From a virus, in the IMG/VR virus record IMGVR_UViG_3300007960_008533, positions 1-26,084 of that record: a DNA stretch of 26,084 nt. One strand, 5' to 3'. Below, piece after piece: positions 6,897 through 26,084 of the stretch. Below the pieces are notes generated by a model. It made no database searches. It was not told the DNA's origin and worked only from the letters and a program-made list of their open reading frames with translations. The translations under genes were made by a program, and so were the position numbers. Position 1 is the first letter of the stretch. Every line of letters begins with the position of its first letter.

Positions 6897-7451
6897 ATGG
6901 TCCATAAAATAAATAAACAGAAAAGAAGAGGGAGGGAGAAGCCCCCATCTTCTGATTCCATTATAGTAGCCAACCGTAGGATTCTTGAGATAATTGAAAT
7001 TCCAGCAGCATATGCATCAAGTACTTGTTGGTCCTGCAAAAGAATAAAATCTGCTCCGCTGGAAAAGGCGCACATAGAGCCATTCAGTCGCGGCGGATCT
7101 AATAGCCCAGATAATTATTTGCTGCTATGTAACCACTGCCACCAAAGCCAACCAGATGGAGCACCCGTTGAATACCAGATAGAATGGCTTACTAAGAGAC
7201 CCCAATTCTGGGAATCTAAGTTTGAACCGAGTCCTTTTCAGACTGAGTTCAAAAGAATGTCCGGCATAGAAATAGAAAGTTTTTGCGATCTAATAATAGA
7301 AAGACATGGTACTAAAAAGCTCGAATCGATATTTAAAACGACTCTCAGGGGAGGGGTAATGGACAAGGCGGGAATGACTACCGGAAACGCAATGGCGAAC
7401 GCGGTCTATGCCTTCATCCGAATGTACCGCGACGAATACATGCGAATGTAA
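6897..7451 (+). CDS. HNH endonuclease, probably homing type
   Basis: Nicking or double-strand endonuclease of the HNH (beta-beta-alpha-metal) family, 184 aa. The zinc ribbon cysteines are C44/C47 (CWSC) and C78/C81 (CNHC); the catalytic set is H59 (KAHIEPFSRGG), N73 (SPDNYLLL) and H82. The C-terminal ~100 residues are unrecognised and may read the DNA target. GGGGAAA lies 8 nt before the ATG. It is the only plus-strand gene among minus-strand genes from 1 to 18.5 kb. It separates the AEP gene from the RRM-terminase block and overlaps the AEP gene's 3' end by 46 bp. This placement is typical of a selfish insertion. A packaging-assisting HNH, known near some terminases, is the alternative. Confidence 0.85.
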   Translation: MVHKINKQKRRGREKPPSSDSIIVANRRILEIIEIPAAYASSTCWSCKRIKSAPLEKAHIEPFSRGGSNSPDNYLLLCNHCHQSQPDGAPVEYQIEWLTKRPQFWESKFEPSPFQTEFKRMSGIEIESFCDLIIERHGTKKLESIFKTTLRGGVMDKAGMTTGNAMANAVYAFIRMYRDEYMRM

Positions 7452-8959
7452 TCTTCGCGCTCTTTCTCGTATCTTCCCGCCTGTCTTGCCCGCGCCCCCA
7501 AAAGCCCCGAGCGTTCCGCATGCTCGCTTAGTCGGTCATCCAGATTTCCGGAACAAACGACCCACCTCAATTTCCGCTTTTCCACCAGGCGAGCCTCAAG
7601 CAGCCTACCCAGTACCCTCCCTACGGTACTCCTAGAAAATCCCGTTAGGCGGCAAATCTGAGCGATCCTGAGGCCATCTGATTCCATAAGGCAACCCAAA
7701 ATGATTGCCGCAGAGGTTCCCAACCCCCTCCGCGAGTCAAATGAATACCGAAAAGCGTCATGGTCAAAGTGGCTCGATCGTATGACAGAAGACCCACGCC
7801 CCCTAAGGTTATCTTCTTTACGGAGGGTTGAATTTAATGTATCACTTGCGGAGCACGATGATGCGGAACGCATGGCGGCGGGATAGCAAAGCTCCCAGCA
7901 TGATCCGGTTGCGCCTAGACCCTTTCGGGTTCTTCGAATCAACCCAAGCTTCTCCAGCTCTCTGTTTCCCTTCGTTACCGTTACCGTTGAACTTATCGCG
8001 GCCTCTAACGCCAATTGCCGAACACTTGCGGTATATCTGTAAGACTTTGCCTTGCTAGCTATGTCAAAATGAGACTTTATAAGCCTAATTATACTAAGCC
8101 TCCTCCTGCCAAGTGAATGTGATTGGTTTATTTTATAAATAAATGAATCTATCCATTCTTGGCTTCTTTCTGGATCATTAATACAGACGAATTTCTCAGC
8201 CTTTTTGTAGCTTAGCATTAGCCAATCTCTTGCTGTCTCTTCTCCACGCTTCCTAATTCGGTTCTGCAGAGATGCTCCGCCTAGGTTTTTAGGATCCGAT
8301 AAAATATTAAATATATCATCGAATCCAAGTCCGGACATATGAAGAGAGTTAACTATTGACTGGACAAGCTCAGAGCCGCTTTGATATCCGAAGCCACCCT
8401 TCCATCCAAGCTTTATTTTTTTATTTACAGATTCATCTATATCAACTTTGCTACTGCTTCTAGAAAGAAAGCATATCGCCTCTTCACAGCTTAATGGTTC
8501 AACCAATGAAACCTCTAGGCCAGACCTATGGGGAGACAAGGGAGGTCTTATGAAGGTATTTCTCCTAACCCAACTCAATGCCCCCTTAGCGGATATGAAG
8601 TTGACTATCTGCCTTCTGAGTTTTATATCGGAGATCCTGCAAAACAGATGACGATGACCATCGCTTCCGCTTGATATTATAACAGGCCTAATGCCATTCC
8701 CCTTTATGCACTCAACGATCTCCTTGAACTTAGGCTCTTGGCTCTCTGGGTTATCAAAGTCAATCGCTAATATATCATCATGTGGACGAACGGCGAAGCA
8801 TAGGTTTTTATCTATTGCATTTTTTAAGTTAAAAAATATCCTGCCTGTATTGCTTTTATCAATTACCAGTATCTTGTCACAAGGACTTATTGCAAAAGCC
8901 ATCTCCATTCTAATTCTAGAAATCTCACTTGATTGGGCATGCTCCGCCTTCACACTCAA
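7406..8959 (-). CDS. AEP-like primase/replication protein with winged helices
   Basis: Probable archaeo-eukaryotic primase-type protein, 517 aa. AEP marks: ILAIDFDNP (D67, D69, metal-binding DxD), IISSGSDGHRHLF (S97-H102 or H104, nucleotide-binding S-x-H type), and RPPLSPHRSGLEV from residue 138, matching the RxPGSxH-like segment of phage/plasmid primases. The C-terminal half holds two likely helix-turn-helix regions (TVTVTKGNRELEKLGLI; RIAQICRLTGFSRSTVGRVL), which would bind DNA. It starts at TTG 8959, with GAGGAG 7 nt upstream, 35 nt inside the RNR gene, so it is coupled to RNR. The last 46 bp are also coding, in antisense, for the HNH protein. Role in primer synthesis or origin initiation is inferred; the AEP call is fairly good. 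Confidence 0.7.
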   Translation of the reverse strand: MSVKAEHAQSSEISRIRMEMAFAISPCDKILVIDKSNTGRIFFNLKNAIDKNLCFAVRPHDDILAIDFDNPESQEPKFKEIVECIKGNGIRPVIISSGSDGHRHLFCRISDIKLRRQIVNFISAKGALSWVRRNTFIRPPLSPHRSGLEVSLVEPLSCEEAICFLSRSSSKVDIDESVNKKIKLGWKGGFGYQSGSELVQSIVNSLHMSGLGFDDIFNILSDPKNLGGASLQNRIRKRGEETARDWLMLSYKKAEKFVCINDPERSQEWIDSFIYKINQSHSLGRRRLSIIRLIKSHFDIASKAKSYRYTASVRQLALEAAISSTVTVTKGNRELEKLGLIRRTRKGLGATGSCWELCYPAAMRSASSCSASDTLNSTLRKEDNLRGRGSSVIRSSHFDHDAFRYSFDSRRGLGTSAAIILGCLMESDGLRIAQICRLTGFSRSTVGRVLGRLLEARLVEKRKLRWVVCSGNLDDRLSEHAERSGLLGARARQAGRYEKEREDYIRMYSSRYIRMKA

Positions 8960-23274: not shown

Positions 23275-24474
23275 CTATGTATTAATTTCTACTGCTCCAT
23301 TTTTAGTTTGAATCTCAGAAAGATTTGACCATCCGCGTTCAGCCTGTGACTTGTTTTTCCTTATGCATGCCCAAGTTAGATACTTGGGAGTAAGTTTTTC
23401 AATCTCGTTATTCTTATTTACAGTAAAAGATCCCAAGTCTATTGATACCAAATATTCTTCGTCTATGTTGCTATGGTAATTCAAAGATAATAGCCCGTTT
23501 GATAGCAAATGCATTCCAAACTGGTTCTCAGAACACCAATCTAAATTATTGCCAGACACATACTCACCAACAGTATCTGCCAATCTAACCAACTTCTCCA
23601 TGTGCTCTCGCTTGGTAAAATAAATTACATTATACCGAATGGCGAATACACCAGGGATATTCCTCAAGAAATCAGCGGTGTACTCCTCTTCGCAGGCCTC
23701 CTTTAGGTCAATCCCCTTTAGTATCTGAAGATACTTATCGTACATCACTCCGCCGCTGTTTGCCCTTAGGCAATCCCCAAAATTCTTGCCGTCGATCTTC
23801 CCGCAATAACCCACGTCAGCCATCTCGCCTTGGAGTATCTGATGCGCCATAGTCTCGTCGCCGCCTGAAATCAAAACCGCGTACAACAACTCAGCACTGG
23901 TTCTACCCTGATTTCGAGCCTCTTTCTTAAACTTAAAAATATTCTCCCAAAATAAAGAAGGATCAAAATAGTTTGCCATAATCAACTTTCTGAAAGTGAT
24001 CACATCAAAACGTGACCTGCAAACTATGTCGTACCGCTCGCCCCTCCTTTCCTCCTCCGCGCACATCGCCTCGTATGCACACCTAAGCTGATGATACTCT
24101 AGGGCTGCCCCTGTCGCTTCGTAGAACAAGCGGCCAGCCAAATTATCTTCCGCTAGCGCACTCGCCCTCTCCCGCCGATATTCGTCGCGGGATATTTTCC
24201 CAGCATCCTGCCCCTCCGCATCTGCATCGGCTTTGCCGCTCCAATAGTGGGGATCAGAATCTGCTACCTCGATCGACTTGATCGAAGAACCCCACTCGGA
24301 TCGCACATGGTCTAAGCTGCCGCGCTCCTGTGAACCATACTGCTGGTCGGCTAGCCGTTCCTCGCAGTAAAGGAACGCATCTGCGTTGTTTGGCTCAATC
24401 AGATTCTCGCGAATGATCTTTGCTGTTCGCTGAATTGTCCTGAGCTGCCCCGTGAATAATATTGCCGTCCTCAT
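23275..24474 (-). CDS. glycosyltransferase-like protein
   Basis: 399 aa. The start MRTAILFTGQLRTIQRTAKI and the later YDIVCRSRFDV (the 'YDxxxRxRxD' type motif) match a group of glycosyltransferase-like proteins found in large viruses, phages and bacteria. The rest is mixed and not recognised. AGGAGA lies 5 nt before ATG 24474, and its stop is 8 nt before the next ATG. Possible roles are modifying the host surface to stop superinfection, decorating capsid or tail, or glycosylating phage DNA. No second glycosylation or base-modifying gene beside the Nmad1-like protein is in the window. Catalytic identity is not shown; the family call rests on two motifs. Confidence 0.6.
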   Translation of the reverse strand: MRTAILFTGQLRTIQRTAKIIRENLIEPNNADAFLYCEERLADQQYGSQERGSLDHVRSEWGSSIKSIEVADSDPHYWSGKADADAEGQDAGKISRDEYRRERASALAEDNLAGRLFYEATGAALEYHQLRCAYEAMCAEEERRGERYDIVCRSRFDVITFRKLIMANYFDPSLFWENIFKFKKEARNQGRTSAELLYAVLISGGDETMAHQILQGEMADVGYCGKIDGKNFGDCLRANSGGVMYDKYLQILKGIDLKEACEEEYTADFLRNIPGVFAIRYNVIYFTKREHMEKLVRLADTVGEYVSGNNLDWCSENQFGMHLLSNGLLSLNYHSNIDEEYLVSIDLGSFTVNKNNEIEKLTPKYLTWACIRKNKSQAERGWSNLSEIQTKNGAVEINT

Positions 24475-24967: not shown

Positions 24968-25165
24968 ATGGCAGGAAAACATACTCACAAGGTGAAACCA
25001 TCGAATCGGGAAGAAGCATTGGCGAACGACTGCCAAGCGTGTACCGATAAGGTGCTCCGTTTCCGCAGCGCCAATGCGGATTATGACAAAAACCGTCGTG
25101 GCAAAGTAGACGCTGCGACCCTAAAGGACCGCCGTGCGCAAGCGTTCGAGCGGTTGGGAGAGTAA
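24968..25165 (+). CDS. hypothetical protein, 65 aa, GC-rich region
   Basis: Unrecognised. Highly charged, helical, one CxxC (DCQACTDKVLRFRS), closing in RRAQAFERLGE. I choose ATG 24968; the frame is open to 24920. No clear ribosome site. Codon third positions are more GC-rich than in the phage genes to the left. The stop is 4 nt before the next ATG, so the two genes form a unit. The CxxC alone is not enough for a zinc-binding call. Confidence 0.5.
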   Translation: MAGKHTHKVKPSNREEALANDCQACTDKVLRFRSANADYDKNRRGKVDAATLKDRRAQAFERLGE

Positions 25166-25169
25166 AACA

Positions 25170-25808
25170 ATGGCAAAGACGGACAAGGCAATCGCGAGAG
25201 ACTGCACCTACTACTACGGCGAGACCGTCGCGCAAGTGCGCGAGCGGTTCGAAGCAGAGATCGCCGATCGGGAAGCCGATCGGAAGGCGCGGTTCGAAGC
25301 GAACAGCATCGCCATTGCGATGCGGGATGGCTACCGAGCAGGATTGAACAGCGGCAACGTCGGAGAACTGGACACCGAGGAAACGCGTAGCAGTTGGGCC
25401 TCGCTGGACACCGATCTGGAGAACGTCGGTCGAGACCATTCGACCATGGGTGTGTCATGGCGCGAGATCACGGTAGGTACCTCGCAGGTGGTCATCACCT
25501 GCGAGGTCCATGGCCAGCCCAACCCCGAAGGGGATATGGTGGCCAAGGCGGTCCTGTTCCGCATCGCGAGTTCCGAGGGCGTAACGCCCACATACGGGCT
25601 TCGCTACAAGGTCGCCCACGAATTGATCCATTCGGGAATCATCACGCGCAACATGGCGCTGGCCATGGTGCAGGAAGCGAGCCACGTCGGAGGATTCGAG
25701 CCAGTCGCAATCGCGACATGGCTTCGCACGTCGGAGGTCGCTTCGCAGGAGCGACACGGGATGAAGACTCCCACCACGTCGTGGGCTAGCGTGAAGGTAG
25801 CACGCTAG
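25170..25808 (+). CDS. hypothetical protein, 212 aa, GC-rich region
   Basis: Unrecognised. N-terminal helical, charged part (VAQVRERFEAEIADREADRK), then a strand-rich middle (SWREITVGTSQVVITCEVHG; DMVAKAVLFRIASSEGVTP) and a helical end (RNMALAMVQEASHVGGFEPV). ATG 25170 has GGGAGAG about 7 nt upstream; the frame is open a little further left. High GC in third codon positions and a textbook terminator 20 nt after the stop support a real gene. Its composition differs from the other genes in the window. No catalytic motif, membrane span or signal peptide is seen. Confidence 0.6.
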   Translation: MAKTDKAIARDCTYYYGETVAQVRERFEAEIADREADRKARFEANSIAIAMRDGYRAGLNSGNVGELDTEETRSSWASLDTDLENVGRDHSTMGVSWREITVGTSQVVITCEVHGQPNPEGDMVAKAVLFRIASSEGVTPTYGLRYKVAHELIHSGIITRNMALAMVQEASHVGGFEPVAIATWLRTSEVASQERHGMKTPTTSWASVKVAR

Positions 25809-25827
25809 CAGCGGCAGCGGGAGCGGG

Positions 25828-25862
25828 AGCGGGAGCGGGCTAGCCCGCTCCCGCTTTTTTTT
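25828..25862 (+). terminator. strong rho-independent terminator
   Basis: A 28-bp perfect palindrome (25828-25855, arms of 13 bp, arm start AGCGGGAGCGGGC) runs into eight T residues (25855-25862). It sits 20 nt after the stop of the 212-aa gene. The left arm is preceded by short GCGGGA tandem copies, which would allow slipped pairing. Confidence 0.9.
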
Positions 25863-25869
25863 GGCCCCG

Positions 25870-26084
25870 CGACCCCGGCACCTAGTCGCTACGCACTAGT
25901 GAGGCGACACGCACGCGACACGCACGCGACACGCACGCGAGGCGCACGCGAGGCGCACGCGAGGCGCACGCGACCCCGGCACCTAGTCGCTACGCACTAG
26001 TGAGGCGACACGCACGCGACACGCACGCGACACGCACGCGAGGCGCACGCGAGGCGCACGCGAGGCGCACGCGACCCCGGCACC
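25870..26084 (+). repeat. nested tandem repeat, 101-bp unit built on 11-bp units
   Basis: The block beginning GACCCCGGCACCTAG starts at 25871, 25972 and 26073, a period of exactly 101 bp; the two full copies appear identical and a third is cut by the window edge. Each unit has three copies of GCGACACGCAC, three of GCGAGGCGCAC and a 35-bp linker holding an inverted pair CTAGT/ACTAG. Six 11-mers (66 bp) plus 35 gives 101. The 11-bp period is close to one DNA helical turn. No coding frame is likely. Iterons of a replication origin, a partition site, or a repeat-rich host or plasmid region are possible. Confidence 0.85.

Follow-up and report, generated by a model that had tools for sequence, protein, structure and literature searches.

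The 26,084-base window analysed here, which is an entire IMG/VR record of the linear type without end repeats, ends in an array of 11-base repeats nested in a 101-base repeat; the array is genuine and does not code for protein. The simplest reading of this array is a higher-order minisatellite that grew by slippage. We place about even confidence in this reading of an array that lies between genes, downstream of a strong terminator, in an uncultured tailed phage.

Architecture of the array and its surroundings

An exact repetition with a period of 101 extends from position 25868 to position 26084 (217 bp), the last base of the record. Each 101-bp unit consists of a 35-bp linker, three copies of GCGACACGCAC (A) and three copies of GCGAGGCGCAC (B), two 11-mers that mismatch at two adjacent bases. 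Two full units (25869–25969 and 25970–26070) are followed by 14 bp of a third (26071–26084). The A 11-mers occupy 25904–25936 and 26005–26037 on the plus strand, the B 11-mers 25937–25969 and 26038–26070 on the same strand. The linkers at 25869–25903 and 25970–26004 have the same sequence, and the third is cut by the contig end after its initial 14 bp. Within the first linker, CTAGT (25882–25886) and ACTAG (25895–25899) form an inverted pair around an 8-base loop; the linker also holds the palindrome CACTAGTG (25894–25901) and a decayed 11-mer, TCGCTACGCAC, with 3 mismatches. This exact periodicity bears out the anatomy described in the first-pass annotation, namely an AAABBB order and a linker with an inverted pair in units of 101 bp.

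The longest self-match at any lag measured 116 bases, compared with 7–11 in five mononucleotide shuffles, and a chance origin of the periodicity is excluded. The A word occurs nowhere else in the window on either strand, and the B word nowhere else on the plus strand. The identity of 100% over 2.1 head-to-tail units outside genes is that of a minisatellite, while the 12 copies of the 11-mer in two classes are tandem direct repeats of binding-site length, as found in iteron origins. The GC content of the array is 74%. A coding repeat was ruled out, since neither 11 nor 101 is divisible by 3 and such periods break the reading frame; the array is placed 3′ of a stop codon and of the terminator. 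A structured RNA was likewise rejected, with no match in Rfam and an ordinary folding energy (z about −0.9 to −1.0).

The intrinsic terminator (25828–25862, plus strand) consists of a perfect inverted repeat of 14 bp with a T run behind it, which confirms the strong terminator proposed earlier ahead of the array. This hairpin was omitted by our terminator scan, which requires a loop of 3–8. The terminator overlaps five tandem hexamers (AGCGGC/AGCGGG, 25810–25839) that provide its left arm and form, next to the array, another repeat prone to slippage. Just 5′ of the terminator ends an ORF of 212 aa (25170–25808, plus strand). It matched no family in Pfam, PHROGs or NCBIfam, no relatives were found in phages, viral contigs or genome contigs, and its predicted structure was unusable (mean pLDDT 44). 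It is preceded by an ORF of 65 aa (24968–25165, plus strand).

The phage and the ownership of its right end

The window encodes a major capsid protein, a protease, a portal, a terminase, a ribonucleotide reductase, a primase/helicase, an SSB, a Sak4-like ATPase and a Cas4-like exonuclease, a gene content that marks the record as part of the genome of an uncultured tailed phage. Three collinear relatives were present in IMG/VR, with identities of 73–76% in the primase/helicase; they show the remainder of the contig to come from a single phage lineage, and profile searches for further relatives returned the same three contigs and no others. In one of them (G003), the genes after the capsid (L019, 3339–8619) appeared sugar-transfer-like and radical-SAM-like, as judged by eye only.

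G001 is the sole relative reaching the right end. It is collinear with the window up to position 24465, where DNA similarity stops inside the gene of a 399-aa protein (23275–24474, minus strand) that has no family match and is common only to G001 (56% identical). The contig of G001 is too short to include an array, and collinearity with G002 and G003 breaks off earlier still. Past the 399-aa gene, the GC content of the window rises from 0.47 to 0.54–0.62 along with a plus-strand ORF, the upper value (61.5%) being that of the last gene. Past the same gene, G001 rises from 0.43 to 0.58–0.59, with a GC3 of 0.65 and also a plus-strand ORF. The first small ORFs of the two contigs, which are located in the same place, share a CTDK-containing stretch; the similarity is weak (BLASTP E 0.002), with 5 of 2000 shuffles as good. 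For the flanking DNA, alignment to G001 scored no higher than alignment of shuffled sequence.

The change in composition could also mean that the last 1.1 kb are foreign, either through an assembly chimera or as host sequence adjoining a prophage, and that the array belongs to another replicon. The GC content, 0.47 before the rise, reaches 0.62 in the last gene and 0.74 in the array, and GC3 climbs from at most 0.58 to 0.76 in the 212-aa ORF; both would fit such an origin. However, GC rises likewise in G001 past the 399-aa gene, where an ORF of weak similarity follows, and the 212-aa ORF is without a match in host genomes. We thus regard foreign DNA as unlikely; a chimera in particular is disfavoured by the collinearity of G001 and its GC rise, and these same features leave the suggestion that the array may start a different replicon unsupported. 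From the comparison with G001, the GC-rich region at the right end most likely belongs to the phage.

The tandem junction and the end of the contig

The left neighbour of the first linker is the terminator (...TTTTTTTTGGCCCC), whereas that of the second and third linkers is the B block (...GAGGCGCAC). Since the junction from B to linker is absent from any single unit, slippage on one unit during assembly cannot generate the array, and the reads must have held at least one real tandem junction. These two different left contexts make unlikely the assembly slippage that the first-pass annotation had named as a possible refutation, and the one-unit artefact was rejected on this ground. The junction is read directly from the record, as are the structure and the position of the array.

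Within the contig all 117-mers are unique and exactly one 116-mer recurs; hence the contig stops exactly where a graph walk with k = 117 closes its loop, the use of this k by the assembler being our guess. Virome assemblies are known to fragment at repeats (PMC6350398), and the array is probably the reason why the assembly ended there. An end at a repeat loop implies that the array has at least the number of units recorded.

The position of the array at the contig end and after a terminator would also suit a site close to a physical genome end, with a part in packaging or in forming that end; in T7, for instance, short repeats flank the terminal repeats. We consider such a role very improbable, as the repeat loop suffices to explain the contig end, the record is classed as linear without end repeats, and the terminase gene is located 20 kb from the array.

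Slippage growth or protein-binding site

Three nested periods (6, 11 and 101) in a stretch of 280 bp, the decayed 11-mer in the linker and the identity of the units would fit growth by slippage and a recent duplication in a non-coding interval. The hexamer array, 30 bp away from the 101-bp array, shows local slippage. In the proposed course of events, slippage would first have multiplied an 11-bp word, of which a variant in two bases then arose; slippage or unequal recombination would subsequently have doubled the AAABBB block and its linker as one unit of 101 bp, so recently that the copies are still identical, and the resulting repeat would have broken the short-read assembly. The array appears to owe its form to slippage and seems to lack a dedicated protein partner. 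Against the minisatellite, the regular AAABBB order and a repeat spacing close to one helical turn would also be expected of a cluster of protein-binding sites.

As an iteron-type site, the array would serve the phage as an origin of replication, as a partition site or as a cluster of regulatory sites. The protein that binds each 11-mer and assembles on the block would have its gene past the contig end or in another part of the genome. This alternative is tentative. Six contiguous 11-mers per unit, about one turn apart and in ordered classes, are consistent with it, and binding of R1 ParR requires at least two 11-bp repeats (PMC9426499). The phage encodes its own primase/helicase and SSB, and a DNA-binding trans factor could exist in the form of a 517-aa protein (7406–8959, minus strand) whose winged-helix domain matches MarR_2 (E 3e-9) and which also gave a weak O-like match (E 6e-4). 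This protein has collinear counterparts in the relatives and is possibly a replication protein of the phage lineage, but its gene lies 17 kb away from the array, and no direct repeats were found in or near it. Genes for Rep, ParR or ParM were not recognised among the window proteins scanned with PHROGs, and the check for replication or partition genes beside the array that had been proposed earlier recognised none among the window ORFs scanned.

The spacing itself gives a divided answer. The one-turn regularity claimed in the first-pass annotation stands inside each 66-bp block, where a helical drift of 0.5 bp per 11-mer copy keeps the copies roughly on one face, but it fails between units: with 10.5 bp per turn, a unit of 101 bp makes about 9.6 turns, and neighbouring blocks therefore face roughly opposite sides and successive units are out of helical phase.

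Known systems resemble the array in part. The R1 parC centromere (ParMRC) shares with it clustered 11-bp direct repeats, but it surrounds the par promoter, whereas the array is downstream of a terminator, has two ordered sequence classes, is very GC-rich and was found without a ParM or ParR gene in the window. Lambdoid origins likewise contain short direct repeats and belong to phages with replication genes of their own; their iterons, however, lie inside the O gene and are paired with an AT-rich tract (PMC7466680), while the array is intergenic and GC-rich, with no family match for the ORFs on its visible (left) side, no neighbouring initiator gene found and no AT-rich tract in that GC-rich flank.

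Exact searches of viral contigs with two A copies, with the linker and with three copies in which the variable bases were left free gave no match. These searches yielded no related array that would indicate a conserved site, and the contigs of the relatives do not reach the array. Among genome contigs, a degenerate pattern of 33 bases identified six loci, in a Prevotellaceae MAG (L022–L026) and a Kuenenia MAG (L027). Like the array, these are three-copy runs fitting GCGANNCGCAC, but they are single short runs in unrelated contexts with different variable bases, and the 101-bp higher order was not seen in their flanks. The five Prevotellaceae loci form a dispersed repeat family of three-copy 11-mer runs (GCGAGACGCAC or GCGATACGCAC) with similar flanks on five contigs. 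A 38-bp match to a Streptomyces plasmid (E 3e-3) was treated as chance.

An iteron-like role, which would require a partner protein and conservation, is possible but unsupported, and nothing found shows the array to be a replication or partition site, a role that is unproven. It is improbable that the array is long, with many 101-bp units and two 11-mer classes, and represents a centromere- or origin-like site of an uncultured phage lineage whose binding protein belongs to no known family. At present, the array chiefly shows where this genome breaks off, and why, and cautions that the recorded copy number is a minimum. If bound by a protein, it would offer a way into the study of replication or segregation in an uncultured lineage of phages.
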